Shown piece by piece: positions 201 to 63,382 of a DNA stretch of 64,000 nt (position 1 is its first letter; each line of letters opens with the position of its first letter). The notes beneath the pieces were generated by a model. It saw nothing but the letters and a program-made list of their open reading frames with translations, made no database searches and was not told the DNA's origin. The DNA is from Dioscorea cayenensis subsp. rotundata (lineage: Eukaryota > Streptophyta > Magnoliopsida > Dioscoreales > Dioscoreaceae): assembly GCF_009730915.1 (NCBI RefSeq), contig NC_052494.1, forward strand, positions 310,001-374,000, in the 5' to 3' direction. The position numbers were made by a program, and so were the translations under genes.

Positions 201-1468
201 CTTAACAAAGAGAATAATACAGAAGGAAGACTCAAGAAAATGTAAGGAATTAAGAGGGATGTCAGGATGTTGGTCTTCCAGTTTGTGCGATCCAGTATCA
301 ACAGGTATCTGCAGGAGGAAACAACAGTAAAGAAACAAATGAATTAAATTAAACCTTTTTCCAAGAAAGATACAAGCAATAACCACCTACTCTTTTTGTT
401 ACTAGTAAATAATTCATTGTCTAATTGAACAACAAATGCCCTAAATAATCATATAAAACATGAAGAAGCCAAAAATAACAAAGGTGTCCATTTCATACAA
501 AGTCAAATGGCCACCTTCTGACACAAGTTTCTGAACAATATCTACATTTTTCTTTTGTGATGAGCAATTAGATAATTATAATAATAACACACACAAAAAC
601 ACATCAAGATAATTAGAAGAAGAAATTGAAATTTCTTCCTACATGTTTCGTATATCTAGATTCTTACATGAATTTCTTCTAATATTATTTGTTCATTATA
701 CACCAGTTATTGGCTTAACCAAATAATACTGTATAATGCAAAATCCAAAATACATTTAGGAATGTATTAAAACAAAAACATTTGCAGCGGAGGATCAAAT
801 AAATCATTAATACGCATGAATTGCAACAATTAAATATACAAATGAACCACATGCTGGATACCAATTCCATCAAATCCACAAACAAGTAGTTCACAACCAA
901 GCAGAAGAGCAAAAAAACAAAAAAGGGCCCACCAACTGTTAAGCAACAAAGTCGGAACAAAAAGGCGCATCACGAAAAAAAAAAAAAAATTTAACTTTAA
1001 AAAAAGCTCTTTTTTCTTTATCTATTGTTCCGTTTTCCCTTATTACTCAAAACACAACGTGATATACTTTTCCAAAGGCGATATTCAATACATGAGAAGT
1101 CTTAATGTCGAATTTTATACAAATCTTTGAATCCGATGCCTTTTACAACATTTCATCATATAAAAAACACTCATTTTCATGAAAAGAAATAAGAACAAAG
1201 AAAAATTCACAGCTAACAAACAAGATAATCAAATTAAACACAAAAAATAAAAATAAAAAACAAAAAGATAAAGTGAATAGAGAGCTCACATAGCAGCAAA
1301 GGAAGCGAGGAACTTGAAGAAAGTAGTACCAAACCCAAGCCCACTCCCCAGCATAAACGCATGGTTAGCTAGCTTCTTCGCAGCAACACCGAGCTCCTTA
1401 AGATCCGATTCAATGAGATCACTACTCAACCGATCTGTCTTCATCGCCAAATACCCAAATTTCCCCAT
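201..1468 (-). CDS. COR413-PM: COR413 plasma-membrane type cold-regulated protein (5' part, runs off the window)
   Basis: Cold-regulated 413 family multispanning membrane protein, linked in plants to cold, drought and ABA responses; the PM subgroup lies at the plasma membrane. Two coding exons are visible. Exon 1, 1468-1290, starts MGKFGYLAMKT and ends ...KFLASFAA. Exon 2, 308-201, reads YLLILDRTNWKTN then LTSLLIPYIFLSLPSVLF, the family's signature first membrane segments. Exon 1 ends AT|GTGAGC and exon 2 starts CAG|ATAC, so the Ile codon is split by the intron. I chose the Met at 1468 because family members start with MG..YLAMKT; an in-frame Met at 1492 adds eight residues. About half of the usual 200 residues is present; the later exons lie beyond position 1. 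Recognition rests on remembered family sequence and is strong. Confidence 0.9.
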
Positions 1469-11050: not shown

Positions 11051-11802
11051 CTAAGATATAATTGTAACTTTTAATCTATGTTTTAATCCGGAATTAGTTA
11101 CTCTTGGGATGTGTGAGAGTGGCTTCTTTCTGACTAAGATCTTTTATTCCTTGTAGGAAGGATTAGAGGGGGTGTTTTGGGTTGTTTGGTAAAAATTTGA
11201 GGAATATTGCCTAATGTAATGCATATCACCTACAACTCTTTTATGCAAAACTTGACTATAAAGTTAAGACATTTGTTTTGTTAAATTAATTGAAAACAAA
11301 GGTAGATTGATAAGTTGCTTAATGTAATGCATATCACCTACAACTCTTTTATGCAAAACTTGATTATAAAGGTTCGACATTTGTTTTATTAAATTAATTG
11401 AAAACAAAGGTTGATTATTATCATTTAACATTTTATAATGGTTTGCTAAGAAACACATAAACACAACTTTCATTAGTGTATGGATTATGGTTTTCATCTT
11501 AAAGTTTTTGAGTTACAATTACAGAATTGCGGCCAAGTGAAGAGAACACTTCATCAGATATCAGTCTTCTTTATCCTTCTTCTCCAGTGAGCACTGAGGG
11601 GCTTATACTTGAGGTAAATTTGCCTTGTCACTCCACTCTCCACAGCTTGTAGTTATTGTTTTTAGCGGGGTACAACACACAGAACAGTTGAAAATAAAAT
11701 AAATATGAGACACCTAGTGTTGCTCCAGTGGATGATTGCAGTGGTGATGGGCATAATGTGGGACTCATGGTTGGGAATACAACTAGGAAGCGCAAAAGAT
11801 AG
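8901..11802 (+). CDS. Unrecognised plus-strand gene, three exon-like segments (tentative)
   Basis: Three segments have splice borders and open frames. 8901-8957 lies between TTTCAG and GTATTA and reads DTQVHLESSLLEHMVKSRQ. 11525-11613 lies between ATTACAG and GTAAAT and reads ELRPSEENTSSDIS..., ending STEGLILE. 11710-11802, after ATGAG, reads TPSVAPVDDCSGDGHNVG and ends NTTRKRKR-stop, a nuclear-localisation-like basic end. The last two join in phase. I do not recognise the family. The 5' part was not found, the third acceptor lacks a pyrimidine tract, and the first two segments may not be adjacent exons. If real, the small minus-strand gene at 9.2 kb would sit in one of its introns. The last segment has a degraded relative near 13,445, within the duplication described separately. 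Confidence 0.3.
9246..9464 (-). CDS. Small Cys-rich plant protein, MCYKVxC type
   Basis: Short protein starting MCYKVDCKQCGKVTWGGCG, then KHVLSVYNGVEKGKHCMC and RSWPGV. The paired Cys (CKQCGK, GGCGKH, HCMCRSWPG) suggest a small zinc-binding fold. I remember this as a conserved but functionally undescribed plant family of roughly 70-100 residues. The Met at 9464 is chosen because the family block starts MCYK; an in-frame Met at 9542 adds 26 basic residues. The frame runs to a stop at 9246 (72 residues). A good donor (CCAG|GTATGAG) at 9277/9276 inside the Ser-rich tail means the true C-terminus may come from a downstream exon I could not place. Confidence 0.65.
   Translation of the reverse strand: MCYKVDCKQCGKVTWGGCGKHVLSVYNGVEKGKHCMCRSWPGVSLPSDTASSKNSTSSSSSARYETSLVLKF
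9543..11204. other. Spacer with A/T-rich simple sequence
   Basis: Apart from the tentative gene that may span it, I see no coding sequence. There are poly-A/T tracts, ATT-rich stretches near 10,790-10,835, and a run of ATAC/TATGC-like units ending in a (TA)n tract at 11,024-11,050. Confidence 0.6.
11024..11050. repeat. (TA)n microsatellite
   Basis: Uninterrupted TA dinucleotide run of about 13 units after imperfect ATAC and TATGC units. Confidence 0.85.
11205..11425 (+). repeat. Two-copy tandem repeat, 108-bp period
   Basis: The stretch starting CTAATGTAATGCATATCACC near 11,211 recurs at 11,319 as TTAATGTAATGCATATCACC. Both copies continue through CAACTCTTTTATGCAAAACT and TTAATTGAAAACAAAGG with only scattered substitutions, so the duplication is recent. 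Confidence 0.85.
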
Positions 11803-14800
11803 CTATAGGATGGAATGAATCAATAAGCTGGGGTGTTTTTTTTTTTGAACATTTATACTGAAGAAAAGTAGATAGATGTAAAAAAGATTTTGTATGTTAT
11901 CACCGCCGCAATAATCGAGCGGGAAGACACTTAAGTCTTATGCTGGAGGTTAAGGGTTTGACTCTTTCCTGTGATTGAAATCTAATAATAAAAGGGTGTG
12001 TATATGCAAAATGTTAAAATTGGTGGTGGAGGATAGAAATGCATGATTGCTTGGGAGAAAATAATCAGTAATACTTAAAGAAAGTTTCTAGTGGAGTTAA
12101 AGGTTATATATAACTTTCCTGCTTATGAGTGGGATTGGAAATGAGTTGCAACTCATAAGTTTTACTGTGTTTACTTGCCTAAACAAAGGTAGTTTATGGT
12201 GCTTTTATGCTTATTATTTAATCTTATCATAGTAAGTAAAAGTGGATGAATGAAAAGATAATTTGATATGTATGTATGTATATATATATATATATATATA
12301 TATTATAAAAACTAGGTGGAAGAATATAAAAGATGGGTTTTAATAGTAGCTTTGGGTTTACCATTTTTATCTTACTTTTTTTTTAGAACTTTTTGGAATT
12401 AAGATGAAAAATATAGTTATAAGTAGTGGGTACACAATTGCATGACTGAATTGGAGAATCATTTTAGTCTTTATTGCCTGCCGGCTTATGGTTTAACTAA
12501 TTTTGGGTAGAATTGGAATGTGATTACAGGTCACTCTTTTCTATTTTGTTAACTTGGACTAGTAAAGGAAATGTGTGAGCTGTTCAATGAGCTCTAATTA
12601 GTAATTAGTGTGGAGATGCATGCATTGCAACCACATAGGTGATGACCCCTCAATCACTTCAAAAATATAAATCAATTGAAAGTGCTACTTCAAAAGATAT
12701 AGTATAACCATCCTTTCTTGGTCCCTAGAATTTATCCATGTCAGTCAATTAGTGGCATTTATACTTGGCATGATTTATAATATTCTTAATTAAAAGAGTT
12801 TTAATATTCTTGAACTTGTTTTTCACACTCACACCCTGCACTCGCATGCACGCACGTTTTTGTAATTTTGTTTTCATTTGCATTTTTATGAAAAGTCAAG
12901 ATGCTTGTGTGGGTTAAGATTTTTTTTTTTTTACCCTATAAATAAAGTAGTCATAATTGAGTAGATAGTGGATATTAGTACTCATAAATTTAGAGAACTT
13001 TAGCTTTGAATGTGGAGAGCTGTTTTTATTTTACTCAAAGGATTTGAATTAGCCTCTCCTGATTGCATTTCTTCGGAAATGAAAGAAAAGATGAGAAATC
13101 TGTCTTTTTAAAATTATTATTTTAATAAAAAAATATTTTTGTGATAGATCCCGTTCCGGGTCAAAAATATAGTGAAATCGTTTTCCTATTTAAATTTAAA
13201 TTTTAAAATTGATATTAATTTTTGTAATTTTTGTTCACATATAATTTTGTCAAGTTAGGATGCTTATTATTATTATTATTATTATTATGAAAATTGAGAT
13301 GCTTATGTGCTTGCATGATGTATGTGTATATCCTAAAGTTCAAGATAACTATGGGAATAAATTGAAGTTAATGTTGTTAATGCTAGAGTTTTAGTAGGGT
13401 ATAATTAATAGATAGAATAGTTGTAAATAAATTAATTAGAGGAGACCTAGTGTTGTTCTAGTGGATGATTGCACTGGATGGTTGGGAATAAAAATGACAA
13501 GGATGAAAAGACAAATTTACATTTGCAAAAATGTTATACTTGGTAGTGGAGAATAGAAATACATGACTTCGTAGGAGAATATAATTAGTAATACATAAAA
13601 GAAAGTTTCTAGTGAATGTAAAGGTTATATATAACTTTTTTTTTTTGCTTGTGATCATGATCTAATTAATTTCAGGTGTATTTAGAATTGGTATTGAATC
13701 ACAGCTAATTAGTGTGTTTACTCACTAAAACCATTTGGTTCAAATGATTAATAGTATTATTTTAGGTCTTTTGAGAGGGAAAAAATTGCGAGAATTCAAA
13801 TTCTATATAGAAGAATTAATTCTCCAAGAGTTTAGACTCTTCATATGAATCTCAATAAACCAAAATGAGGGCATATGTGGCACACATCATTTATAGCATA
13901 TTCGTTTATCATTTTTAAAAAAAATAAATAGTAATGGATGAATGAAAAGTAAATTTAATATTTTTATTTTTAATAAATGTGATGATTAATGTGGTTGATA
14001 TACTTACACGACTGAGTGGAAGAATATAATTAGTATAATATTTTTTATAAACCAGGTTCTAGTGGAGGTTTATGTGGGTGAAGCCTTTGCATGATATATA
14101 TATATATATATATATATAAGCTCTGGTTTAAACTAATGGTGGATAGAGCAAGAATTGGATCACAGCTCATTAGTTTGATTTTATTCACTTGGATAAATAA
14201 AAGGGGGTTTTAATACTAGCTTTGCATTTACCATTTTGACTCAAATTATTTAAAATTAAGCTGAAAATAGTTATAAGTAGTGGATGACACAATTGCATGA
14301 CTAATAAGTGGGAGATTGCCTGTCAGCTTATGGTTTAATTAATTTAGAACAGAATTGGAATGGGATTACAGGTCACTAATTTCTATTTTGTTAACTTGAA
14401 CTAATAAAGGAGCTATGTGAGGTGTTCAATAAGCTCTAATTAACTTTGAGATGCATGCATTGCATTGTAGCCACACAAGTGATGACCCTTCAATCACTTG
14501 AATAAATATAAAGTGATTGAAAGTTTTTGATGAAGAGTTGGACCCCATGCTATGATGAGTCACTGTTACAATTTTAATTGGTCCCTTGAATTTATGCTTG
14601 TTAGTAAATTTGTGGCATTTATACTTGGCATGAGTCATATTATTGTTAATTAGAGTTATAATATTCTTACACTTCCACTTTTTAAGCTTTTGTGGGTTTA
14701 AGATTTTTTTTTATATTTTTTTATTTATTTTTTTGTTTTTTATAAATTCCAACAGCCAAAAGAGTTATATTGAAATGGAGTGGATACTGGATATTATATT

Positions 14801-17929: not shown

Positions 17930-18604
17930 CATGACTTTTGTTCTCTGTTGGAGGGGACTTCAAAGTGTCACAGATAAAATCTTGTCTACATCCAGTGAAG
18001 AAGTAGAACATAGACCAAAATGGAAGAAATTATATTGAAGTTTTGCCATAGTTGCCACCAAGAATTTGGAAAATTAATCAATGTGTTTGCTCTTTCTTCT
18101 ATGTTTTTAGTTATGTTAAGTTCTTTAATTATTAGTTGCTGTTTTTTTGGGAAGATCATGGAAATATGCTCCATTTAGTTGCTTATTTCTTGGTTTTGTT
18201 AGTTGGAATTTTCTGTATTTAAACACATTCACTAATCAATGAAATTCAAGAGATATCTATATCAAACTCCTATTTATATTTCAATTGGTTTGGCCACTCG
18301 TTCAAGAAGTAAGCAATTCAAGAAGATTTTAAATGATTGATTAGAAAAGTTTAGACTCAAGTTAATCTATGAACGCTCACTCATTGAAAGTGATGACAGT
18401 GTGTCACAATTGAAAAATCTATCATTCAAATTCAAATTTGTAATAATTGAATCTTCAAGCATGCAACATAAAAAGTACAAATCAAAATTAATAATTACTT
18501 ACCATTTTGGCTTTATTAGAGAATCAAATTTAGCTAATCAATCGTTAACACACATCAAGACAAATTCCAGACTCTATAGCATGCATATATACCTTCCTAA
18601 GCAA

Positions 18605-21600
18605 CATCATAACCAGAAGTGAGTTTTGCAAACTTATGTACTACTATTCTTGTCAAGGAAACTCAACAAAAAACCACTGGCAATCCTCCTCAAAATAAGA
18701 CTGGGTAAATGACGGCACAACCAACCATTCACATAAGCGAACATGCTCGACAAAACAAACTTACCAAGAGCCCGTGTCCAAGCATGCCTTTTCCGGCCTT
18801 CTTTGGAAGGCTCGTCTTTGTCTCCATCCTTCTTGGTTTTTGATCTGATGTCAACCAAGAATTTATTTGCTTCTTCATGCAATTTGTGGATTGTGTAATG
18901 AACAAACAGGTGTTCACACAGAGTCCGCACCGTTGGCCAAACTCTCCATTCCTGCAATTCAATCGGCAAAAAAAGCTCAAAAACAATTTTAGCTATGTTC
19001 TGAAGCCCGCATATATGGTACATATTCAGATTACAATTATAGTGATGAAAGAAATTTGCATTCTCAGTTCGTACATGACGGAAAGGATGAGAAGCAGTAG
19101 AACTATTTCCTTCTAACAAATTTTTGCTCACAAGAACGGATTTCACATTTTCCATGATTTCGTTAATGATAGAAGTGTTAGCGGGTAGGTTCTCGAGACA
19201 AACCTGTTAGGTATAAATGGGAATTATCAATGCACTTTTCCCCGGCAATCAATTCTAACGAGGCTTCTTAACATTTAGCTGATACAAATCAATGTTGGCA
19301 GTTGGCACAAGATCAATGCTTACTCAAATCCTTACCTGGTCCTCTGCCACACTCACACGAAGGCGTGCTATTTGGTACCTAGTATCCAGCATGGCCTGCA
19401 GGTACCCTTCGATATATCGTCGTTGCTACATTAATATTTAAACGGCACAGATTAAGATTTTCTCAACCGGCTTTTCAGCATATAATAGATCAGCTATTTC
19501 TTAAACATTGTGAGCTTTTCTTCTAGTTGTGGATGAATGTCATTCATATTTGAACAAGTTAATTATGTAGCCATAAGTTTACCTCATCATCTCTTGGACC
19601 ACAAACAAGTTCAATTTTTCTATCTGAACCTCCTTCCATAAGAGCAGCACCCAATAATAAGGTTGGCTCCATGGCTAATCTAAGTATACCCTGGTGGAAA
19701 CCAGTCACCTGAAAAACAATGGGAAATCCATCACAAGCATTAGAAATGATGATTAATCCTATATTTAAGGTTAAATGTCTCAAATATATTTGCTTTCAAA
19801 ACACTATGATAACCCAACAAGCAACAAGTATTTATTTCTTAAACTAACTTCACCATTACCATGCCATTCAAACCATTTGTCTCTGCCCCACTTAAAACAT
19901 TATCTGAAATCTCCGTGAGAGCAGCAAACAGAGCATTTGAACCTGCTGTTCTAACCTGCCACGAGCACAAAGAACTGCATTTGAAAAGGACACATGATAT
20001 GTATGTAATATCCCCAAAGTTCTCATATATTGAAGCATACAGTTTTCCCAAAATCCCGTTTTGCCCCTGAAAGGCTTTTAGCTTTGGCATACATGCCGAT
20101 AAATTTGAACATACCTGTCCAGAAATTCAGGTCATAAATAATTAGTCCTATCAGGTACATTAGAAAATGGGAACACATAGTAATAAATTGTTCTGATTCC
20201 TTACGGCTACCCAAGCCGAATACTCAACTGACAATCAGATGATAGATGTATGTAGCACTGATGCCAATGTGTCACTCCTATATAACAAATTCATAATAAA
20301 TACATCAGCAAAATATTCAAGGAGAAATGTGCTTGATGTATAAAACTGAAGAGTCAAGGTTGAGTGAGGAAGCTGTCTTGGTAAGTGTCAACTACCCCAA
20401 TTTTCTAGGAATAAATTTAATCATGCAACAAATTATTCAAACACCATACAAGTATGCAAGTGAAAATATTCACTTTGAATCTTTTCTTTGGACCTCAACA
20501 AATTATGCAGAGGCTGAAACTGTGCCAATATTCTTGGTGATTGAGAAGATTAAAATCACTGAAGTTAGTTTAAATAAACTGTTGATCTAAACATGACTAA
20601 AACTTGAAGTCAAGAATTACGCCTGCCATTTTTCTCAAACTAGTTTGAAACACTGTATGTAGTGGAAAGGAACTTTTAACATGCATTTATGTATGGGAAG
20701 GTCAATTGACTTTTCCAAGGCATTATACAAGACATCATAACCGGCCAAACAATAATTTTAAAAACATTAAAAGGAATAAAAAAAAAAACCAACAAAAACT
20801 ATTGAAAGAATTTTACCTAGAGTAATTCCAAGAAGAAGGATCGAGCCATATGAAGGATCAATGAGAACATATAGAGAAGACAAGGCCGTGTCATCTAAAA
20901 TTGAAGCGAAGGCTGGAAGAAGCAGTTGACTTCTTTTGAAAATATATACCTCTTACTACATACCTTGGATGACATGTTTAACAATTTCTTCTTAAGAAAA
21001 GGAAAAAAAGGACTCACTGCCAAAATCGACAATAAATATAATATATTTATTGAGCAAGTATACAGATTAAATTTCACGAAGCCTGCCAAGAATAATGCTT
21101 TGCACACTACACAAGCAACTTGCTGGGGATTACTAAAGCATGGGTTAGGAGGACATTATTCAGCTCCACAACTGCATGCTTTATAGTTGGGACCTACAAA
21201 AAAGAAAGGACTCCATTATCATGTTAATGTGCAGCATGTGGAAAACATAAAGCTAATGGCAAGTTTTGCAGGCAAATCAAAGGGTTTTATACAGTGAAAA
21301 AATGACCTTAAGGCTTAACGTCTCTTGGGTGGAGATATAACTTAAATCTGGATTCCCTGGTAGAAATCTTGCCTTGATCTTGAACAGATCATAAGCACAA
21401 GCCAAACAGGAAAATATGAAGAATGAAAGAAAACATTGAGCATGCAAAACGATACCCTTGCATTTGATAAAATCAATAGAGAAGTAAACCAAACCTTAAT
21501 AGGTGGGTCTCAAAGTGATTAAAATAGAATAGCTGAGTCTGTGCCATAGGACCATTAAGTGATGTTCTCCAGAATGGAACACGCCTCATCAAAGTCTCCT

Positions 21601-21911
21601 CATCAGCATTTAAATCAATTGGCTGAAACAATGTAACATCTCAGATAACAACCAAAGCACGTACTTGAAAATGCATGGTCTCAAATAGTTTTGACAATGG
21701 GAAGCAACAATTTGTGAAATAACAATAATATGGATCGTACACTATGTAATGCAAGAGTTCAAAACAACATTGTGATTTATGGGAGGTACCCTAAAAGCTT
21801 CAATAGCAACTTGGTATGTACCTGTATAACAATAGAGGAGCATTTAACTTGTTTAACTTTACAATTAATTGAATGCAGAACAAAGACTACACAAAGAAAA
21901 TCCTCACTCAA
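18605..21911 (-). pseudogene. Duplicated, broken 3' end of the VPS13-type gene (exons 26-36 equivalents)
   Basis: Eleven exons matching the last exons of the intact gene are present in the same order, introns included: about 21911-21822, 21622-21495, about 21380-21300 (degraded), 21193-21087, 20963-20817, 20114-20041, 19955-19860, 19708-19583, 19425-19336, 19203-19060 and 18951-18634. Against the intact copy it shows a one-base deletion at the end of 21622-21495, a degraded exon near 21,300-21,380, TAG replacing a Lys codon at 21109-21107, a two-base deletion in 20963-20817 that leads into a TGA, a nine-base in-frame deletion in 20114-20041, and GT-to-GC donor changes at 21086-21085 and 19059-19058. 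The last exon stays open to the same stop (SGFLLSFLDKNSST). It could not give the family C-terminus without repair, but exons downstream of the stop remain largely open. Confidence 0.88.
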
Positions 21912-22445
21912 TAAAACAGCAACAAGCAGTAAGATCATCAAAATAGATGTAGAAGTGACTGCTTTCAGTATGTAGAAATTTCATGAAACCCAGATGGCCG
22001 AATAATAGTATAGCTACATTTTATGAAAGTAATTAGAATTATCAAGAATGAAAACATGCTATTTTATAAGTTCATTAACAGCAAACTACAACAAAACAGT
22101 GAACATATAGCTACTTTTTTTTCAATGCAAGGGTCAAGAATAACCATGCAACAGTAACATACTACATTTCCCATCTGGAATAGTATATCTTGTTGTAATT
22201 CCTCTCACAAGGGAATGTAGCAACAAAAGTTACAATTATAGCCCCTACTTTAGACTTTCTTTAATTAGTTCAAATATTCTTTTTTACTATTACAACCCTA
22301 GTATAGTGTTCATACCAAAATAACAAAAATGGAGATGTTTGGTTATTATACCAATAAGCAAGGGTAGTTCGCTCATTCCGCTATATAGAGATATGGAGAT
22401 GTATAATAAAGTTATTTAAGTAATTCATAATTTAATATTATCATA

Positions 22446-22813
22446 TTCCTAATCTCTACACATTTCACCACTCCATAGGAAATTCCCTCTGCCTCTACCA
22501 TATTCTGACTTGGTAGTTTCCACTGCCTAGCCAAGGTTGAGCTATGAGATTTGACGGCGGAGTTGAAAAGCCACCCATTGGCGCTTTATGCCTAATCATT
22601 CCAGATAATACTTACATCCTATCTCACCACGGGTGCTTGCACAGAGTCAACTGATGCTTATTCCTCAAATACCATCATTGCTTCTTCTCCGGAAACAGAA
22701 GAAGTTCACAACCAGTGGGCTTCTACCTCCATACGGCATTGCCCCGTCAAACTTCTGTTCATTGCTAAAAATTCCTCAATGCTGCCTCTCGTAGGAGTTT
22801 AAGCCATGTCTCA
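22446..22813 (-). pseudogene. Nuclear insert of plastid 16S rDNA (NUPT), fragment
   Basis: The plus strand shows the reverse complement of bacterial-type 16S rRNA, about E. coli positions 340-700. Landmarks: AATCTCTACACATTTCACC (site of the universal ATCTCTACGCATTTCACC), GGAAATTCCCTCTGCC, GATTTGACGGCGGAGTTG, the 530-loop region as CACCACGGGTGCTTGCAC, and CTGCCTCTCGTAGGAG (the 341 primer site). The short helix around TTCTTCTCCGGAAACAGAAG looks plastid/cyanobacterial rather than mitochondrial. Many CpG sites of the universal sequence are TpG or CpA here, as expected for old methylated nuclear plastid DNA. It is not a functional rRNA. Confidence 0.92.
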
Positions 22814-25596
22814 CTACTAACAAGCCAAACAAATCAATATAGCAATGTGAACCAAACAAATTAAGATAGCATACCTATCAAAGTGATCCCCATCGTTTAC
22901 CTTCCCAGGCATCTAAATTTATGATAAAATATCACATTCTATGAATCAAACAACCCAGAGTAACCCATCAAAAAGAAGTTGATTTCAGACAGCTGCAGCC
23001 CTTTGGTAAGAAACCAGATGATAACTATGTGCAAATTTTACAGCAAACATGGACAGTCACACAAGACTCATTATAGAAATTTCTGGTAATATTTTGATGT
23101 GATTTTTCAGGGAAGTTCAACAAGTCGAAATTTGAATAATAAACTAATTTTGCGCCTGCTTCTAAGATAGTCAAAATGTTGTGCTAAGATGTACTGCTTA
23201 AATGAATATTTCTAGCAAACTGTTAAACAACATATGCATAAAATCTGCATCACAAAGCATGATTATATATATAGCAATTTAACTAGGCTAATACAAGCTA
23301 ATAAAACAACAATATTTTGTCCACTAATTTTTAACAGCGTACGTTTCCAGGTGATGAGGTCTGCTGCAGAAAACAAATTGAAATTTAACAAATGCTGCTT
23401 AATAAATTGATACTTCCACTTGAAGCTCTGCAAAAATTACAGCTGAGCTTTGCACATCAGTTTTCAAAATCAAGAAAGATGAGCAAATTGTTATTAATCA
23501 ACGGGTTTTCTTGGGAAGGTTAAATTTTAAATTTAAGATTAAATATAGAAAGCAAAATCATGATTAAATTTCTTTCACAAAATTAACAAAAAATAATTAG
23601 AAGATTCTGGGGTTGATTGATTCAAAAAGTGATTGATTTTTTATTTCAAGTCTAAATATAGGAAGTAATTATGATTAAATTTGATTTTCCAAATTTAAAA
23701 ATGAAATTAGAAGATTCAGAAGTTTATTGATTTAAGAGAGAGTATAATCATAACGAGTTCCTATTGTTTATATATATATATATATATATATTCTTGGGGT
23801 GCTATTATTGATACAGATGCTACCATTTTTCTACATACATGACTGTAACTTTCCACTTGCTTGGCTAGGAAATCATATTCAATTTAGTCTGATAAGTTCA
23901 CACACGATGCCGAATTTCACATGCAGAAAGTGAAATCAGATGAAAGAAAAAGTTGCAATCACAGTGATATAAAAATCACAATCTGAAGTTTGTGCACATC
24001 AACCACGATTAATCATTGCTCAGAAATTTCACAGTTGATGTCAGAGATACAAAATGACTTGACTTGCCAAGACTAGCATGTCCAATTAGCAAAAGCTTGA
24101 ACAGGTAAATGACTGGGGGCGAGAGGAAATTATAAAATAAATTTCTTGAGTCAGTGTAAACGAAACATGTAAAACAAAATTACGAGGAACATAATTTTTT
24201 TTTCAACATTCAATTTCTTCAAAGTAAATAGTACATCAGGCAATGAGGACTATGATTCTGATAAATCATGTAAATAATAATGTTATGCTTCATTATATTC
24301 AGATGCACATGATCAACAAAATCCTGACATGTTTAACAAGACACCAATATTATTGACATACACCTACAGAACAATAAAACAGAACAAGGTCAGTTAATTG
24401 CTCTGTTTACTGCATCACTTGTCAGGAAAAAGAATTAGAGGAGATATTGATCAGCATATAAAACAGGTGGAAACCTCCATAAATTTCGAAAAGAAAAAGA
24501 GCAAAGACATGATCCAATCAAATAACTCTTTCTATACATTTCACTTTCTGCATGTGTTATCACCAAATGTGGCAATACCTGGACGGAGAATGGCCATTGC
24601 TTGTTGCTCTCAAGCACAGCCTCACCTACCAATCAAATGATTCACAAAATGAGAAACATGTGTGAATAATAGAAAATGAGGTGATAGCACGATAGTTGCC
24701 TGATATCCAATCTGTGCATGTAATCATTTGTAGTTACCAGTTTTGTATCCTTAGTTACAGATCAATATGTTGATAAAAGAATTGAAGTTATGCCGCAAAT
24801 TATTGAAATACAAAATTAAATACATTTTAATGAATGATTCCTTAGCTGTCCTCATCAACTACCTTATGTTAAGGAACAAATTACTGTGTAGACCAATCTC
24901 ATATAACACAGTAGAGGTCCAAGAGGAGATGGTATGCTCGACTATAAGGATCTTTGATTACATAACTAAAAGTCTAAAACCATAGCACTTATATCCATCC
25001 AAATGCATCTAATGCAGTAATTCTTATTGTGAACGGTGCACGTGCACAATTGTGCGTGTTGTTGTCAGTCTTGTGACTTTCATATTACACATAATTGTGA
25101 AAGAAAATGTATGAAGTAATGCTTATGAAACTAAAATTCTTGGTAGTTCTGAAATTTGGCATATTGCATAACCAAAATGAAGAAAAAATAATGATCCATA
25201 ACCAAAGAAGAGCAGTTCCACGACCACTGTAAATTACATATTAACATTGGAGACACTATATTTATTGCTGCGAAGGTCACAATAATCAATAATAAGATGA
25301 ATATGTTTAGGCAATATATGCTACAAATACAACATGTAGTTCCCTAAGGAACACACTTATGTTGTTGAAACCTATTCTGCTTGTAAGAAATGACAATCCT
25401 GTGGCACAGAGAGGCTTCTCAACAGCAATTTGGCAAATATAACACTTTTTCTAGTAAGATGAATCGAACAAATATCACATTGACACAATGTAATTAAAAC
25501 CTCTTGTAAGCAGTTTAGTTTGGTGTAACCAGCAACAAACATGCACCAACTTTTGTGCTTCTGGCAAATGAGATTATTTGGAAAAAAAAATTTCAA

Positions 25597-25945
25597 CAAA
25601 TAACAAGAAGCAGAATCAGATCAAGCCATTAACTTCAAACTCTAGTTACAGCAATGTGAGATAAAAGCTAACTGAATTGAGTAATTTTTGAACTTTTACC
25701 AGCCTAGCAAACATCAAGTATAGCATTACAAATCATTTTTAGTATATTCACCTCTACATCAGCTATTATTAGGAATAGATTTCAATAAGTAACAATAAGC
25801 AAGCCAAGCCATTAATTTCAAAAATCTAGTTACAGCAATGTGAGATTACAGCTAATTGCATTAAGTCTTTAACTTTCATCACAAGTATACCAGTACAAAT
25901 CATTTTTAGCATGCTTACCACCCCACATCAATAACAGTATCCTTC
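25597..25945 (+). repeat. Two-copy direct repeat, period about 190 bp
   Basis: The block AGCCATTAACTTCAA...TCTAGTTACAGCAATGTGAG (from about 25,624) returns at about 25,812 as AGCCATTAATTTCAA...TCTAGTTACAGCAATGTGAG. Both continue into ACAAATCATTTTTAG. The copies have diverged modestly. Confidence 0.75.
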
Positions 25946-26699
25946 CCATTGATAAACCAGAAGTTTTCAGAAATAATTTTTCTCGTGAGGATGCTTTAGC
26001 AAATTATCAAATACATGGCAATTTTGTATGTATATACATATATATATACTTTATATAATTAAATTTAGTTATCATAAATTTTTGCATATAACACCATAAT
26101 TTTTTTTAAAGTAATATGTATTGCTTATGAGGGTGTTTTCATTAAAAAAATCATATGTATTTAAAAAAATTGCAAAACATACAATAATTTTAAAAAAGGG
26201 AAACCCTTTCATATGATTTAAAAAAGGTACATGATATTTTGCAAGGAAAACCCTAGAAACAGACATCATGGAGCAGAAGAACCATTTTATTACATTCAAC
26301 CCTTTCATCCAAGAATTTTCTGAGAGCAAAACGTGGAGTTTGCTTTCCCAACAGAAAAGAAAGAAACGCAAGAAAAGAAATTCTAATCCCATAAAAGATT
26401 CAAGCATATACACAAGCATCATCAACTATTAGAATTATGAATAACATAAAACTTTCTCATTACCGATTATTAAATAAAACCATACAACCATTAAAGTAAG
26501 ACGTTTGGCAACAAAGTGCGAATATCTATACAAAAAGTAAATGCATCTGGAATTTTTGGAAGCTAATTGTAATGCAAACCCTATTCACTCTGAGAATCTA
26601 GGAAAACAGATTCAAGAACTTCTTTCGAACGGAACAACCACCTAAACACGGATACACATTGACAAATAATAAACCTAAAACCTAACATAAAACACTCAG

Positions 26700-27544
26700 G
26701 TCCAAAAACTGACATCCATAGTTTCAAGAAACTTTCTTTAAATTTGATCAAACACTGGAAAATATTAATCAAACCCAAGGCATTAGCAGCAAAATCATGG
26801 ATATCCATTAGAGAAAAAAAAAAATGAGACTAGGGAGTGGGGATGACAATCTGAGGAATCACATGCAAAGAGACCATTGAAATTTTGAAACAAACCCTCA
26901 TAATAATATGAGAGAATATACAGAAACTCATTCCTCATGCACTCAACTGTGTGGAAATCTGAAGCAATTCTAAAACACAAAAGACAGAAGGACATACCTA
27001 AAGTTCTAAACCCTAGCACCAATCATAAAAAAATAATAATAATAATAATAAAAATAAAAAATAAAAAAAAATAAAAAAATATTCTCTCCACTTGATCAAA
27101 CACTGCTAAACATCCATGAAGCTAATAAAATTATCACTAAATCTTGAGTTTAGAATGATAAACCGCTGGAAATCTCCTAACGTAAAGAGAGTAGATCAGA
27201 ATTTCTAGTTGCAAACTTGAAATTCTCAATACTAAGAAGTCTAGTAGAGTTTGCTCATGCAAGAAATTCTTCAGGATAGGACAAACCCATGAAAATCTTG
27301 AATCATTTAAGCAAGGAAAAAGACCAAAACCCTAAACCTCAACTCTGTAGATTCAAGAAAAATATCTCTCGACTTTTATTAAACACTACTAAATATCGAT
27401 GGAACTAAGAAACTTATAAACAAATATAGTGTTTGGAAATGGTAAACAGTAGAATCATTACGAGTAAGTATTAGAATTTTGAAGCAATTACTAAAGCATA
27501 AAACTAGAGTTGTTCCAAGACATACCTAAATATAATACAAAAGG

Positions 27545-27545
<1 letters not shown>
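26700..27545 (+). repeat. Divergent direct repeats in the spacer
   Basis: TTGATCAAACACTGGAAAATAT (about 26,738) recurs as TTGATCAAACACTGCTAAACAT (27,093) and TTATTAAACACTACTAAATAT (27,377). GAAGCAATTCTAAAACACAA (about 26,961) and a GACATACCTAAA block (26,992) return near 27,482 and 27,518, suggesting old tandem copies of roughly 300-520 bp. Confidence 0.5.
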
Positions 27546-27577
<32 letters not shown>

Positions 27578-27578
27578 C
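27544..27578. repeat. Compound (TG)n(AG)n microsatellite
   Basis: GGTGTGTGTGTGTGTGTAG passes directly into a run of AG dinucleotides. Confidence 0.85.
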
Positions 27579-27859
27579 AATAGTATTATAGATTACTAAT
27601 ACATCAACTCATCATCAATAATAAGAAAGGGTTCACATCAAAACCTGACTAAACTTCATGGAGATGATCTGATTAAATTGCGCTTACACAAAATGAGGCC
27701 CAAATAGACAATGTAGTCAGTAAGTTTTACTGCTAAGCTTCTTGGTGCACCTCAAATTTAACACACTTCTTGAATGTGATGCTGATATAAACTATAATCC
27801 ATTTTCTAGTATACATACCTCACTAAGAGATAACATAAGCGGAAGTGAGTTTTGCAAAC

Positions 27860-30800
27860 TCATTTACTGCTTTTCTGATCAAGGAAGCTCAACAAAAATC
27901 CACTAACAATCCTTCTTGCAATAGGATTGGGTATATGACGGCACAACCTCCCATCCATATAAGCAACTATACCTGATAAAACAAACTTAACAACAGCTTG
28001 TTTCCGAGTATGTTTTTCTGGGCCTGCTTCTGGAGACTCGCCTTCATCTCCATCTTTTTTGGTTTTCGATCTGATGCCAACAAGGAATTTACTTGCTTCT
28101 TGATGCAATATGTGGATTGCGTAATGGACAAACAGGTGTTCACACAGAGTCAGCACTGCTGGCCCAAGTCTCCAATCCTACAATTCAACCCAAAGGTCAA
28201 AGGTACAATACGATGCAAACCTTAGTTTTTGAGTTTATGATGGGATATAGACGAGACAATTATACTTCTTGTTAGTGACTCTTGATGCAAATACACAACA
28301 TTGAGGAAAGATGCACCAAGTAAACAAAGAAAACCAAGAGCTTATAGTTATCCAACATTAAACAATTAACATTTTTAGCTATGGAGCACGAACTCGGTCT
28401 ACCTCACATTTCAAGCTTACACACTTTAGGCATGAAGTCAGTCTACCTTACTTTTCAAGCTTACGCATTTCAAAGAAAACTCTAGGCTAGAAATTCCAAT
28501 TACAATCACAGTGAAAGAAACTTACATGTTCAGCGCGCAAATGACGGAAAGGATGAGAAGTGGTAGAACCATCTCCTTCTAACAAATTCTTGCTCACAAG
28601 AAAGCTTTTCACATTTTCCACAATTTCATTAATGACAGAAGTGTTTGGAGGTAGGTTCTTGAGATAAACCTGTTAGGTAAATGGTAAATATCAATGCAAT
28701 TTTCTGGCAATCAATGCTATTGAGCTTCCCTAACATTTAGCTAATCTCATATCCAATTGCTGCTAAACAACCAACATCCAATGCGAAAGAGGGAAGAAAG
28801 AAATCAACATCTGCACAAGATGAAAATGCTTTCTCAAATCCTTACCAGGTCATCTACCACCCTCACACGAAGGAATTCTAGCTGGTACCTAGTATCCAGC
28901 ATAGCCTGCAGGTACCCTTCGATATATTGCTGCATCATTATTTATAAAGGACACAGATTATAATTTCTTCAAATTTGAGTTTCTTCTAGTTGCGGGTGGA
29001 GGTCATCCACATATGAACAAGTTAATTATATAGCCATAAGTTAAACTTGGGTCATAATTTAAAGTTTTAAACTATACTTGGAGCAAAATTACCTCATCAA
29101 CCCCTGGACTACGAACAAGTTCAATTTTTCTGTCTGGACCTCCTTCCATTATAGCAGCACCCAATAAAGTTGGCTCCATAGCCAATCTAAGTATACCTTG
29201 GTGGAAACCAGTCACCTGAAAAAATTTGTGACATCAATTAAAAGAGTAAGAAATGACGATTAATCCTATACTATACTTAAGGTTAAATATCCCAAATACA
29301 TTTGTTTTCAGAACAGTACAAGGATTCAACAAGCTATAATTATTTATTTCATAAACTAACTTGACCATTACCATGCCATTGAAACCATTTGTTTCTGCCC
29401 CACTTAAAACATTGTCTGAAATTTCCGTGAGAGCAGCAAATAGAGCATTTGAACCTGCCATTTTCATCTGTGGGGAACACAAAATAAGATAGTGACTGCA
29501 TTTGATAGGACACATAATATGTATATATAATCTCTAAAGATTTCAGATGATGAAGTGTACAGTTTTCCCCAAATCACCAAAGTACCGCTTTGTCCCTGAA
29601 AGGCCCTTTGCTTTGGCATACATGCTGATAAATTTGAACATACCTATCCAGCAATTCAGACCATAGATGGTTAGTTCTACCTGATACAATAGATAATGGG
29701 AGTGCATGGTAATAAATTGTTCTGATTCCTTACATCTACCCAAGATGAACGCTCAACTAACAATCAAATGATAGATGTGTGTAGCAAAGAAGCAAATTTG
29801 CCACTCCTATTTAACTTGTTCACAATGATTAGTCCTACAATGCACAATATACAGAAAATATACAACAGGAAAAAGTGCTAAGATTCATGTGCATGTGGCT
29901 TCAGTCTTCAGGTGTCTGATGTTGTAAAGTTGAAGAATCAAGGTTGAGTGAGGAAGCTATCTTATTAAGTGTCACCTATTCAGACTATCTGGCAATAAAT
30001 TTAAGTATTCAACCAATTATTCAAGCACCATGCAAATATTCACTTTGAAACTTTTCTTTGGCCCTGGGCAGGTCATGTAGAGGCTGAAGCTGTGGCAATA
30101 TTCTAGGTGATTAAGGAGATTCAAATCACTCAAGATAGTTCAACTAAACTAATGACCTAAACCTATCTTAAAATTTAAGACAAAAGTTATACTTTTCCAA
30201 AACTAGTTTGAAACACGGTATGCAGATAGTGGGTAGAAATGAACTGTTAACATGCATTTACATGTAGGAAGGTCAATTGACTTTCTAAAGGCACAAGTCG
30301 ATACAAAACATCATAACAGGCCAAATGACAATTAAAACATTAAAAGGGAAAAAGAATTTGAAAATCCAACTAAAAGGATTGAAAGAATTTTACCTAAAGT
30401 AATTCCAGGAAGATTGATTGAGCCATCAGAAGGATCAAAGAAAACATCTAGAGAAGATGAGGCTGTGTCATCAAAAATTGAAGCAAAGGCTGGTGGAAGC
30501 AGTTGACTTCCTTTGGCCATATATACACCTCTTATCACATACCTTTGATGGCAAGTATGACAATTTTTTTTCCAAAATAATAGAAAAAAGAAAAAAAAAT
30601 GACTCAATGGAAAAATCAAAAAGAGAAATGTAATGTATTTGCTGACCAAGTATACAAATCAAATTTCATGAAGCCTACCAAGAGTAATGCTTTGCACACT
30701 TTATAAGCAACTCACGAGAGGTCACTAAAGCATGCGTCAGGAGGATGCCATTCAGCTGCACAACTGTATTCTTTATTGTTGGCACCTAAAGGAGAGAAAG

Positions 30801-33800
30801 AAGAGACAAAGACCCTCCTCTATCAGGTTAACATGCAGCGTGTGTAAAACATAAAGCTAAATGGCAGGTTTTGCAAACAAATCAAAAGGCTTCAGACGAT
30901 ACCTTAACCACACTGTGCAAAAATGACCTTAGTGTTTCTTGGGTGGAGCTATAATTCAAATCTGGATTCCCCGGTAGAAAACTTGCTTTGATCTTGAAAA
31001 GTCAATAAGCACAATGTGAACAAAAAAAAATGGAAGATAAAAGAAAATATTGAGCATCCAATATGATATCCTTGCAATTGATAAAATCAACAGAGAACTA
31101 AACCAAACCATAATAGGGTGGATCTCAAAATGCTTAAAATAGAACTGCTGACTCCGTGTTGTAGGATCACTGACAGAAGTTCTCCAGAATGGAACAAGCC
31201 TCATCAAAGTCTCCTCATCAACATTTAGATCAATTGGCTGAAATGATATAATGTCTTAGCCAACCACTAAAGTACATACTTGAAAATGCATGGTCTCAGA
31301 TAGTTTTGACAATTGGAAGTAAGAATTTGTGAAATAACAGTTATATGGATCATACACATGGAACTACGAAATGCAAGAGTACAAAACAACTTGAATAGCA
31401 GCTTTATATGTACCTGTAGAACAATAGAGGAGTATTTAACTTGTTTAACTTTAGAATTGGTCGACTGCAGGACAAAGACCACACGAAGAATATCCTCATT
31501 CAAGCCAGGATCACTGTGACTTCCTCGAATCATTGATGCAAATGGCGCTCCTTCCCATTTTTCATCCACACTAATTACCTAAAGTGACAAGAAATGAAGC
31601 ACCAATGAACTTCACAATAGTAATTATTGCCTTTCATAACAGTCACCAACATGCCAAAACATAAGGATGTTTTTCCTAGATTTAAAAGTGTCAAGCATTA
31701 CCTGAACTCTTAAATGGTTGTATTTATAGTCATCTGCAATCAAGGAATCCAAAGCTATGTTTTCAAATCTTAAAAGTATAAGAGTGGACCGATCTGGCAG
31801 CTCAGTTCCACGAGCATCCTTCAGCAAGTATAATCAACAATTATGTCAGGGTGAAGAGTGATATAACATCTTGCAGAGAAAAACAGTATACAATCCAATG
31901 ATTATAGTGAAGCCACATATGAATTTCTAGACATTATACTTTCAACTAATGCACCAAGTTTCACTTGTACATGGTTCCCAAACTGAAAAACTCATTTGAG
32001 ATATTCCCACACTATCTTTTCACCCATAGGATAAGATTAGCTTATCAACGCAACAGACCCAAAATTATAAAATTGGAAAGAATTAGTCGTAGTTATAATT
32101 TTCAATTTCCATTATCTCCATCTTGCCCTCATCACCCAGCTAACTTGGTTTACCAACTAAAAGTTCAAATAAATATTGTGATTTAAATTCCATGATTATA
32201 CATGAGATCAAACCCAAGGCACAGTCTAGAACCATGACATCAAACAAAAATAGCATTCCTTTATAAACTGAGTGAAGTAGGACCAGGATTTACTCAGCAA
32301 ACTAGTGAATCAAAATAAGTTATTAAATGATATACAAACATTGCAATTAATAAAAATCTCCAAAGGCAAAACTTGGCATATCCATCTCAAATGTAGTCTA
32401 TACAGATGCATAGCGAGCATCATAAGAAATTCAAATAGGTTGTTACTACTTTTATTTAGTTTCTCCTAAATTCTTGAACTTCTAGATCAGTAATTTCCAT
32501 GAAATCTAGAAAATCCATTTAGATTTTTCAGTAATTAATTTACCAAATAAAAATCATACAAAACATAATAATTTTGAATCATAAACAAGGCCGCTCAATA
32601 TAGAAGCTGGTATAAAAGGTACCAAGGGCATCTAGATGAAATAGAATGACTAGAGAAGAGTCTGACCTGCCTGCCATTCTCAAGCAAGTGAATTGCAAAA
32701 TACGAAACTCTAAATTGCATATTTGAGCTGGGCAGAAGCAACTTCTCCTTTTTATAACCATCAGGACGCTCACAAATTCTTAATACTCTGGTAAACCCAT
32801 CTGTAAACACTTCATAACCCACCATGAAAAGTTCTAATCCACGAGTGCCATCAATGGTTCTTTTTCCAACTTCTGATCTCTTCTCAGATACCAAAGGTAT
32901 AACTGGACCTTTATTTTGCATGATCTTGAAAAATGGCTTCCATGTGCACACCTTGTCAATATTAATTTCTCGTGATACATTCATATCTACAACAGAAAAG
33001 CAGCAGCTCAGCATAAGTTCACAAATCTTCATAAAGCCTATTACAGATGTTATTCAAACCAGGATGAATTCTGCCTCATTACAAATGAAAGGAAAAACAG
33101 TTTAAACATAAAACATACAGACAATGTTGGTTTAACTGGAAATTAAGCAAAATTGGAGAAAGAAGATTTTAGGATGCTTTTTTAGTCATGAGAACACAAA
33201 CATACATTTGAGCACCATAGCAACTAACTGGCTATGGTTTTGGTTTCAAAAATACTCTTCGCTAATTAACCTGCATCATTTCTTCCATTATTATAAACTG
33301 CTGTGAAATCCTTCACAATATCATAAGTTTATGTTATAATCTGCAATAAAGTTCTTGAACTCACCATTTCAGGATACAGGGGATAATCATGAAGGACAAA
33401 TCAGCTCTTAAATCAAGGCAAAAGTGATGATTAAAGCATAAATACAATATACACACTGAAATAATTGTTCATCATGAGTTTGAAATAATTTATAAATAAA
33501 TAAATAAATCAAACATACCAACAATTTGAACCACTAGCTTATGTGGCAAGTTCAAGTCATCCCAAGCATACTCAACTGAATCTCCAGAAAGTAACAAGTC
33601 TGATTCCATAAAATCCTGAAAACGCCAGATAATGAAAACATGTTCAACAGCTGTAAGATTAAATTCTCTTATTCAAGAGGATCAATTATTTTGTGTTTTC
33701 CTCTGAGGGCGCAATTATTACTACCTTTTGATGATACATGATAGATGTACCAGACATGCAATTTTCAATTCGGTAAGGTAATGGAAAATTTGGAGGTCTA

Positions 33801-36800
33801 TAGAAGTGTAAATATAAACTGGAGCTTTCTTCCACAATATGGACAGCAGCAAACTGCACTTTCTGATTGTCCTTCCAAGCAGATGAATCTGACTGAGTAC
33901 CAAGACCAGCTGACGTTCTTCTGAATTTCAAGAAAAACCTACCAAGTGAGGAAACACAAATTGGACCAGACCAGCCATATTCTATTTCTTTTAAGGAAAA
34001 CTGGACAAAGATCAGCGAATCTCCATCCTTGCTTTTGTGCTTTTCAAGAATTGATTGAAAGAAATTAATTTTTCTCCTTTCCGAGTAAATTTTCTTCATC
34101 CAAAATGTAGCTTTGTGTTTGGACTGAACAAGGACGACCCCACTCAACTCATCCTTAAGATATGAACAATCATGGAAGACGGTCAGAATTATAAAATAGC
34201 ATTTTAAAAAAACAAAGAAAGGAAGAAAGAAAGAAAAAATCATATGTATCCTCCATAAAAAAAATTATGCAAAAAAAAGATCCTGACCTCTAGATGGCAT
34301 TGACGAACCATCACTGGTTCCTTTGATTCATTAGATATCAGATATCTAGGGGCAATGCATACTAACTGAGATGGCAAACCTGCTTTGTCAACTTTAGGGT
34401 GTAATGAAACACCGAGCTTCAATATGTGATTGTTATTCCCAGCATCCAAACCTTCCAAGGAAAGCTCAGTAAAGCCAGATAATATATCCAGGTTCAATAA
34501 TGCTTCTGATGTCTTCTTCTCTCCCAAACATTTGATATTCACTTTGTTTGATCTGATTACAAAATACATATCATGCTACAAATTGAAGAGATGCCTATAT
34601 CACTTAGAGAAAATCAAAGACATTTGATTAAAAACAAAGCGTGAATATCAAACGTCAACAAATGATGAGCATTAGAGTAACTAACAGTCCCATATCAGTT
34701 AATCTAGTACATTTGGACTTGAATATATAAATTGGGATTTTTCATCCCATTAGCTTAAGCTTTGAGATGGAATTGAACCCAAATAATACATTCAGTTTAG
34801 TAACATAGTAGTAGAGTTAAGTTCATTAGTTTGTTTTACAACATAACTAACAAAAAGGACAACATGTGTGAAAGGGACATGTAAATGGAGGGATAAAACT
34901 AATCGCTTAAATGGAGGGATTTGGTTAGAAAGTTTTCAGGTTTAGGAGTGATTTACTTTTCTATTTTTCCTATTATAAATTACTATATAATACAGTGGAG
35001 TGTCAATTCATAGGAGATGAAGAATTCAGAAGTCTTTTTCCTTCTCATATTTTTGCTTCATTTTACTTCACGGTTTACAAACATGGTAGTAGAGCTTAGT
35101 TAATCAGTTTGTTTACAACATGACTAACAAAAAAGGTAACACATATGGAAAGGGGCATATTACAGTAACTAATAATCCCACATCAATTAATATAGAAAAT
35201 TTGGACTTGCATATGCCAGTTTGGACCTCTCATATGTTAGCTTAAGCTTTTTGGTTGAAGTGAACTACCTCTAACAGTGAGAACCTAAAATACGCATGCA
35301 ATTAAACATATATATATCTCATACTTACTTCAGGAACCATGATCCACAAGACATAGGTTGTAAAAGACAACCTAGATGAGGAGGAAAGTTGGAGCTATCC
35401 TTTTTAGCTTCAATCTCAGTCCTGCATAAATTTAAAGTTGTAAAACAAGACAACAAAATCACATGAACATCATTGGCAAACATTACCAAGGGAGAAACTT
35501 CTGACTGGAAGCATAGCAGAACAAAGGGAGATCAGTGTTGTTCTGCAGAACATAACAACTAAAAATGGTTGCCTGGAAACAAAACAAGGAAGTCAATGAC
35601 CAAGACAGTAGGTTTTGGGGAAAAAATTCATATTTATGTGTACTCTTTGCCCATCACGCTCTACTTATATATTTAGGTGATGTTGATAAAGACTACAATT
35701 TAAGGAAAGAAAATGAAGTAGGATCTCGCATTGGGATTTCACATTACCTCTAAGATCCCTCTCTCTCCACAAGACAATCTTAGAGAAGCAAAGTACTTCC
35801 CCCCACCAAAATCCAACTCTATGTCAATAAACTGGGCCTCATTTTTTTGTTTATGCAATTTTTTAACACAGTCACCACTGTTTACTGGCCTGCACTTGGA
35901 ACAATGTTCAATCAAAGTTACTGTGAAGTAGACAGCATCAGGATTTGCGTAAAAGTAAGCATTTGAACCACATGGAATGATTGCTTGCTTTCCAAAGTTG
36001 CTAAAAGCACTAGCCATGTCAATATCTGCAAAACTCGGACACAGTTTCAACTTGAAATTTTCTGAATAATGTTAGTCAAGAATAAAGATGTATAGTTTTA
36101 CCTGGTTGATTTTCAGTCATAAGAACCTGAATATCTGATTGCAAGAAATTATAGACCTGAATTGTGGGGTATATAAAAATTTCCTTCTGCATTTGCAATG
36201 CAACTGGTGAAACGATAGTCTCTGATTTGTTCACGCTGTTTTCAGGTTGTATCACAGGCACCTCTCTTCTAAGTGTCTCAATAAGAAAATGTACATTGGA
36301 GACATGCTGACCTTCAACTTTAAGGGGACAACTAACAATGCTGAAGAATGATTTTGTTGCCTCAATACCAAAAGTTTTTCTCAGCTTGTAGTTTAATTTA
36401 TCCAAAATTCCGGATACACGAACAGATTTTTCACCCGTCAATTCTTCAGACCAACTTGTTGAAACTGATGTCATGTCTTCCTTGAGATATTCTGTGACAT
36501 CAGGTCTAATGGATAGTAGAAAATTTCCTGCGTTTACAAACCAAACATTTCCACAAGTCATCAGAAGCAATATTAATGTTAATGCAATCCAAGCAAGCAA
36601 ACTATTGAAAAAGGAAACATCAAATTCATTGATAGATCTCATAACCAAAAGGATAGTTTTTCTCTCTGGTTTGCAATTGAGGCACAGCTCTCATTAAATA
36701 AAAGAAGGATTAGTTCCAAAATTACAAAAAGACGTTATTACCCTTAAACTCTCTAAATGTATAATACCACTCTAACAATTACGACAATATGTAAATGGGC

Positions 36801-52238: not shown

Positions 52239-52259
52239 GGATGAGGGATCAAAGGAATT

Positions 52260-62470: not shown

Positions 62471-63356
62471 AATGGATTTAGTTGGTATTTTTGAGCTAAT
62501 TGGATTGTGCAATGCAAATTCATGTTCCTTTTGTGCTTCCTACTTTTTTACATGAGCTTCTTATTGACATCAGAAACTCAATTCTGAGTACAATTTGCAT
62601 TTCTGTCAATGTTGAAAATTTTCCTTCTATGTGCCCAAATTCATTATAATGATGTTTTTTAAACAAAGTTTATGGTTTTCTCTTGCCTGATAATGCAATG
62701 AGAGGAGTGAGAAATTTTATATATTTCTTGTATGTCCTGCACTTCCAACCATGAAATATCCTATGAAGGTGTGGGTCTGCCTATGTTTTTATTAATTTAG
62801 TTTTATCGTTGTCATGAAAAAGATTGATTAAAATGCAGCCTTAAAGTGCATATTTACGCCTAATGGTCTTTTGGTCTATTTGGCATTAGAGTTTTTAACT
62901 TAGGTTATTTGTATTTGGTATAGGAAGGGCTTGCACCCCAAAGTTCATGTAAAAAAGATTGTATATGTGTAAAAATTGTATATTATGTCAAAACTCTATA
63001 CTTACGTGGAGGGCTCGTGTTAGTGTAGATTTTTTTATTTATGTGAAAAATGGGATGTACAGTATTTTAATTTAATCGTTTCATCAAATATGTATAATAA
63101 TTGAATTAATTATAATAGTTGAATTTTATTTATGCTACACTTATAATTAGGTTAAAAAAATAAAAATATATTTTATTATTTTGTATTTTGGATATGTTCA
63201 TGAGTAAAAAATTTTTTGCATCTTTTGAATAATAAGAATAGGATTCCTTGTAAAAAAGATATTTATAATGGTGTTAAAAAAAAAAAAATGTGAACTTGTA
63301 AGGGTATACATGCAAATTTCCCTGAAACTCTTCTCTTTACTCAAAAGCTTAAGCCC
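62471..63356. other. Spacer between the NFD6-like and oligopeptidase genes
   Basis: AT-rich with poly-T and poly-A tracts; no coding sequence is recognised. The part near 63,300 should contain the oligopeptidase promoter. Confidence 0.6.
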
Positions 63357-63370
63357 AAACCCTAAACCCT
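63357..63370 (+). promoter_or_regulatory. Telo-box in the leader of the oligopeptidase gene
   Basis: AAACCCTAAACCCT ends 13 bp upstream of the ATG at 63,383. Confidence 0.7.
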
Positions 63371-63382
63371 ATTCCGTCTTCG

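Follow-up and report, generated by a model that had tools for sequence, protein, structure and literature searches.

Partial gene copies are mostly dismissed as debris, and the question raised by one such copy in Dioscorea cayenensis subsp. rotundata is whether a part of it still makes protein. The copy lies in a 64,000-nucleotide stretch of DNA (the window; contig NC_052494.1, here C24, positions 310,001-374,000), downstream of a VPS13-type gene whose last eleven exons (E1-E11) it repeats. It falls into two parts, with E1-E5 broken and E6-E11 open, a division overlooked by the first-pass annotation of this sequence; thus, one copy holds a disabled and an open half as a built-in contrast, and broken fragments of the same exons elsewhere in the genome provide a control. 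It is established that the duplication took place, that E1-E5 of the copy are disabled and its later frame open, and that E6-E9 changed more slowly than introns. The explanation that we prefer, tentatively and at a little short of an even chance, is that this partial duplicate retains a small C-terminal coding unit, E6-E11, which would still be making protein.

An old duplication of the last eleven exons

The self-comparison by which the first-pass annotation proposed to check the duplication revealed, by blastn, a same-strand collinear repeat of 19,024-21,911 and 28,493-31,503 (74.4% identity, E=0), with a second piece pairing 18,585-18,962 and 27,811-28,188 (80.2%, E=1.2e-94). Base-by-base pairwise alignment of the copy (18,585-21,911) with the intact tail (27,811-31,505) recovered 11 exons and 10 introns in both (Table 1), in agreement with the exon-by-exon and intron match described earlier, and the sequence GTTGAGTGAGGAAGCT, which had been noted at 29,943 and 20,360, has exactly two occurrences on the plus strand (20,359 and 29,943). 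Identity between the two copies ranged from 75.3% (E3) to 90.5% (E6) in exons and from 74.3% to 84.6% in introns, where 364 of 1,769 aligned sites differ and insertions and deletions (indels) are many. At this divergence the copy is old, and because the introns are shared, it is a DNA-level duplication and not a retrocopy, as the first-pass annotation had also reasoned; a processed pseudogene was rejected on the ten introns common to both copies.

The homology ends abruptly within an exon, as had been observed before, and alignment places this upstream edge in E1 at 31,503-31,505 and 21,911-21,913; the downstream edge lies ~49 bases beyond both stop codons. Exons and introns are collinear, on one strand and close together, as in a partial duplicate, so that the term 'tandem' given to the pair holds for a nearby same-strand copy and fails for direct head-to-tail adjacency, since 5.9 kb of unshared sequence separates the two. 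The earlier suggestion that read-through could give antisense-matching RNA was abandoned, since read-through of two copies on the same strand would yield sense RNA. Exons upstream of E1 were not traced in 1-27,810 by a search with 206 stop-to-stop frames (≥30 amino acids) from 31,506-58,000, in which weak matches were counted at E values up to 0.01. The search returned two matches, both judged to be chance (E 0.001, 30% over 53 amino acids, 5,684-5,842; E 0.005, 16 amino acids, 21,097-21,144 on the opposite strand), and a longer duplication carrying further exons was rejected on this result. Among 12 control peptides, E1-E11 were all recovered; one further exon, from outside the copied stretch, was not.

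Table 1. Features of the duplicated locus in window coordinates.
Feature	Position	Strand	Basis
VPS13-type gene, intact, ~24 kb, N-terminal end tentative	27,860-52,259	-	VAB Pfam match and open tail frame
Intact last eleven exons, E1-E11	27,860-31,578	-	GT-AG introns, single open frame to TGA stop
Intact E1	31,578-31,414	-	
Intact E2	31,237-31,109	-	
Intact E3	30,992-30,903	-	
Intact E4	30,785-30,679	-	
Intact E5	30,542-30,394	-	
Intact E6	29,643-29,561	-	
Intact E7	29,467-29,372	-	
Intact E8	29,215-29,093	-	
Intact E9	28,929-28,846	-	
Intact E10	28,669-28,526	-	
Intact E11	28,177-27,860	-	
Partial copy, last 92 nucleotides of E1 through E11, with introns	18,585-21,911	-	Self-comparison and alignment
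Copy E1-E5, disabled	20,817-21,913	-	Alignment with intact exons
Copy E6-E11, open, from ATG in E6	18,634-20,114	-	Pieces 20,114-20,041, 19,955-19,860, 19,708-19,583, 19,425-19,336, 19,203-18,634
Unshared 5.9-kb spacer, rich in sequence from elsewhere in genome	21,912-27,810		Self-comparison and genome search
16S rRNA fragment in spacer	22,446-22,896	-	Rfam RF00177 (bacterial small-subunit rRNA), 63 bits, 22,613-22,896

A disabled half, an open half and their rates of change

Each of the first five exons of the copy is damaged: E1 is truncated to 92 nucleotides, E2 has a 1-nucleotide deletion, the 3' end of E3 including its donor is rearranged, E4 carries a stop codon and a GT to GC change at its donor, and E5 has lost 2 nucleotides. 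A frame disabled in all parts, as expected of a dead pseudogene, fits E1-E5 and does not fit E6-E11, whose only exonic indels are -9 (E6), +3 (E8) and +6 (E9), with zero frameshifts and no stop across 278 gap-free aligned codons; the +6 indel at the start of E9 preserves the AG acceptor. When the intact E6-E11 were mutated neutrally in simulations with the intron substitution pattern and two assumed indel rates, the segment acquired a mean of 2.5-3.8 stops and remained free of stops with a probability of 0.02-0.08, and of both stops and frameshifts with a probability of 0.0001-0.006, values that are optimistic because the segment was picked after the data had been seen. The same simulation left E1-E5 open in 0.2-2.4% of cases, and E1-E5 did break.

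To polarise the changes, we used three further occurrences of E6-E9 as the outgroup. In a genome scan covering 584 Mb in 2,249 contigs, E6-E9 with parts of the neighbouring introns were also located at 5.217 Mb and 5.287 Mb of contig C13 and at 0.379 Mb of contig C1240, and a fourth place besides the window was not found in a search with one of the fragments (27 of 27 first-look candidates scored). Plant genomes are known to harbour scattered fragments of captured genes, and these blocks resemble them in being dispersed over three places with introns and with foreign flanks in common. From the shared foreign flanks, a single capture of the block followed by multiplication is probable. In E6, E7 and E8, all three fragments bear indels whose lengths are not divisible by three; two of the three have a stop in E8, and the C1240 fragment also carries further incomplete copies of E6 and E7.

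For E6-E9, we fitted branch lengths to three classes of site (codon positions 1+2, position 3 and introns) one by one and repeated the fits on trimmed and alternative alignments. The copy branch measured 0.028-0.033 changes per site at positions 1+2, 0.069 at position 3 and 0.13-0.17 in introns, and the intact-gene branch 0.047-0.052, 0.126-0.128 and 0.12-0.14, respectively. The fragments showed no slowing (0.11-0.16 at positions 1+2, 0.10-0.13 in introns); they are frameshifted, stopped in two cases and changing at intron pace at positions 1+2, whereas the copy has none of these properties. An apparent constraint on the C1240 fragment (14/242 versus 82/704, p=0.009; intron branch 0.26) was rejected as an artefact of misaligned intron 5: after trimming, positions 1+2 stood at 0.161 versus 0.125 in introns, and the results for the copy and the intact gene were little changed.

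Polarised changes in E6-E9 numbered 7 non-synonymous and 6 synonymous in the copy and 12 non-synonymous, 7 synonymous and 1 mixed in the intact gene, with 8 differences ambiguous; of 826 aligned intron sites, 67 had changed in the copy, 59 in the intact gene and 53 ambiguously. Non-synonymous change relative to introns was reduced in the copy (7/~286 sites versus 67/826; Fisher p=0.0005), with p=0.09 for the intact gene, and strict singletons at positions 1+2 were scarcer than in introns in both the copy (5/242 versus 48/704, p=0.005) and the intact gene (7/242 versus 50/704, p=0.02). Measured against introns, the neutral share of the copy branch at E6-E9 was ~40% at most; full neutrality of these exons on that branch has P=0.005 with position 3 and is far less probable with introns. 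In the pairwise comparison, 19 of 250 sites at positions 1+2 differ in E6-E9, fewer than in E1-E5 (p=0.01) and E10-E11 (p=0.0009). The positions 1+2 of E1-E5 (52/364) also lie below the introns (p=0.006), a slowing that could be explained by constraint on the intact gene alone. In the copy, E6-E9, four of the six open exons, look conserved.

Coding unit, pseudogene or alternative tail

The VPS13 type of the parent is indicated by a VPS13 adaptor-binding (VAB) domain (PF25036; E=1.3e-8, 34.3 bits, cut-off 22.6) in the open reading frame at 33,686-34,264; the other pieces of the intact gene and its tail that were tested, which do not add up to the whole gene, gave no Pfam match above cut-off. 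The stop-to-stop frame 51,945-52,259 lacked a Pfam match to the N-terminal chorein domain, or any other, at E values up to 1; we tentatively take this frame, which has no database match, to be the N-terminus of the gene, with a start near 52.2 kb. Against solved structures (PDB) the intact tail found no relative (E 0.39 for the best of 4 matches), and with neither Pfam nor PDB match no PH domain was detected in it, which is weak evidence. The intact gene is probably of the divergent VPS13X type. VPS13X of Arabidopsis (At3g50380) is described as a very divergent fourth plant VPS13, shorter than the others, which has three amphipathic helices, possibly an extension of the ATG_C region, where the C-terminal PH domain would be (PMC7613979). 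The likeness lies in a C-terminus described there without the usual PH domain and a tail here in which no known domain was found; the difference is that neither the bridge nor the VAB part is present in the copy. Similar stretches (76-80%) at 34,671-34,880 and 35,073-35,265 were also seen in the self-comparison, within what appears to be a single intron of the intact gene.

In the explanation that we prefer, an old DNA-level duplication put the copy of the last eleven exons downstream of the probably VPS13X-type gene in the same orientation, after which E1-E5 of the copy decayed and E6-E11 remained open, E6-E9 at least changing slowly. From VPS13 architecture and the description of VPS13X, we take E1-E5 to be the end of the lipid-transfer bridge and E6-E11 to be the C-terminal membrane-binding helix region. 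The slow change of E6-E9 and the open frame of E6-E11 together make continued production of a protein the likeliest reading, either as a small autonomous protein from the first ATG in E6 or as an alternative C-terminal tail spliced from the intact E5. Such a product would bring the membrane-binding helices of the C-terminus but not the bridge, and might compete with the complete protein. Expression of the copy and its start site, like its domain identity and function, are inferences. A further step, which we consider rather unlikely, is that the membrane-binding C-terminus of a bridge-like lipid transfer gene has split off as a gene of its own, giving a stand-alone membrane-anchor protein or a switchable tail modulating VPS13 contact sites; the bridge part (E1-E5) would then have been lost and the C-terminal helices (E6-E9, perhaps onward) kept by selection. 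Expression of E6-E11, if it occurs, would suggest that a bridge-like lipid transfer protein has a C-terminal part that is useful alone, and would make the copy a natural separation-of-function gene.

The chief competitor is a plain decaying pseudogene, which was constrained earlier (as a longer duplicate, for instance) and has since died throughout, the open E6-E11 being due to luck and a short last phase of decay. We regard this as quite possible, although likewise at less than even probability, and several observations weigh for it or against a surviving coding unit. Beyond the broken E1-E5 and the missing 5' end, the copy has lost the donor of E10 (GTAAGT to GCAAAT); splicing at a cryptic GT five codons upstream, in frame, would give a protein of 276 amino acids, and retention of the E10-E11 intron, which has no in-frame stop, one of 317. 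The 276-residue protein had no Pfam match above cut-off: DUF6761 (E 0.0009), at 19.7 bits below its own cut-off of 27, and two weaker matches, also below cut-off, were judged to be chance. The pairwise ratio of non-synonymous to synonymous divergence is alike in both halves, with 0.43 (0.30-0.64) in E6-E11 not clearly lower than 0.46 (0.29-0.72) in the disabled E1-E5. Within exons, the copy gave no significant contrast between non-synonymous (7/286) and synonymous (6/89) changes (p=0.09), or between singletons at positions 1+2 (5/242) and position 3 (4/122; p=0.49); the copy's position 3 (0.069) also falls short of the intron rate, which makes this contrast weak, and by the position-3 yardstick up to ~75% of the copy branch may be neutral. 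E10-E11 show no clear slowing at positions 1+2 (52/306 differ versus 364/1,769 in introns, p=0.16); with E10-E11 near intron level and E6-E9 lower, constraint is supported for E6-E9 only, and the outgroup consists of three related broken fragments from the same genome that cover E6-E9 alone. What speaks against a wholly dead copy is that both yardsticks reject full neutrality of E6-E9, that E6-E11 have neither stops nor frameshifts where about three stops would be expected under full neutrality, and that frameshifting indels are present in all three fragments of these exons.

The copy might instead serve as an alternative C-terminal cassette, with transcripts of the intact gene reading through and E5 spliced to the copy's E6 to give a second tail isoform. 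This is a form of the first-pass annotation's idea of alternative tails and at the same time one of the two routes of the coding-unit explanation, so that the confidence placed in the two overlaps; as an account of its own it appears improbable. The phase of the intact E5 equals that of the copy's E6, allowing an in-frame splice, and a cassette would account for an open E6-E11 beside the decay of the skipped E1-E5; however, the intact E6-E11 would have to be skipped across an intron of ~10 kb, and homology alone would produce the phase match. An assembly artefact, either a duplicated haplotig or a mis-join, is favoured by no observation and is very unlikely because the copies are so diverged (identity of 75-91% in exons and 74-85% in introns, and numerous indels); both lie within one contig of 1.0 Mb.

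Functional partial duplicates are already known in plants, and the VPS13-type parent and the split fate are particular to this copy. In barley, HvARM1 is a partial duplicate of the E3 ligase gene HvPUB15 with a function of its own, supported by silencing, over-expression and interaction evidence (PMC6092874). The two cases are alike in that a partial plant gene copy, of a class usually catalogued as putative pseudogenes, retains part of its parent; they differ in their parent families and in that functional evidence was presented there, and the sequence of one genome is used here. No report of a tandem duplication or pseudogene of a plant VPS13 was found in a literature search covering few subscription journals.

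The spacer and the surrounding window

The sequence between the copies was rejected as part of the duplicated unit, since compared with the rest of the window it gave only one weak match of 58 bases (E=0.004; window 322-378), and a frame search did not find exons of the upstream gene in it. Its stretches recur elsewhere in the genome, and scoring 40 of 111 candidates gave at least 58 matches, among them the spacer itself. The repeated sequence at 24,061-25,955 has relatives on contigs C5, C7, C11, C17 and C18, and some stretches of the spacer are collinear with two parts of C11, those two blocks being in opposite order. The 22,446-22,819 part of the 16S rRNA fragment has matches at numerous further genomic sites, and we take the fragment to be of plastid type (nuclear plastid DNA, NUPT). 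As the simplest account, the spacer is likely a later insertion between once-adjacent copies; alternatively, the matching sequence beyond the copy may have been lost.

Self-comparison of the window also revealed a 102-base tandem duplication (93%) at 11,207-11,416 and an older local duplication, in which pieces of 11,681-12,817 match 13,414-14,674 at 73-86%. The neighbouring genes are the start of a prolyl-oligopeptidase-type gene (63,353-63,994, plus strand) and an NPH3-family gene (2,944-5,682, minus strand; domain match 4,378-5,682), the last exon of which is presumably 2,944-3,480.

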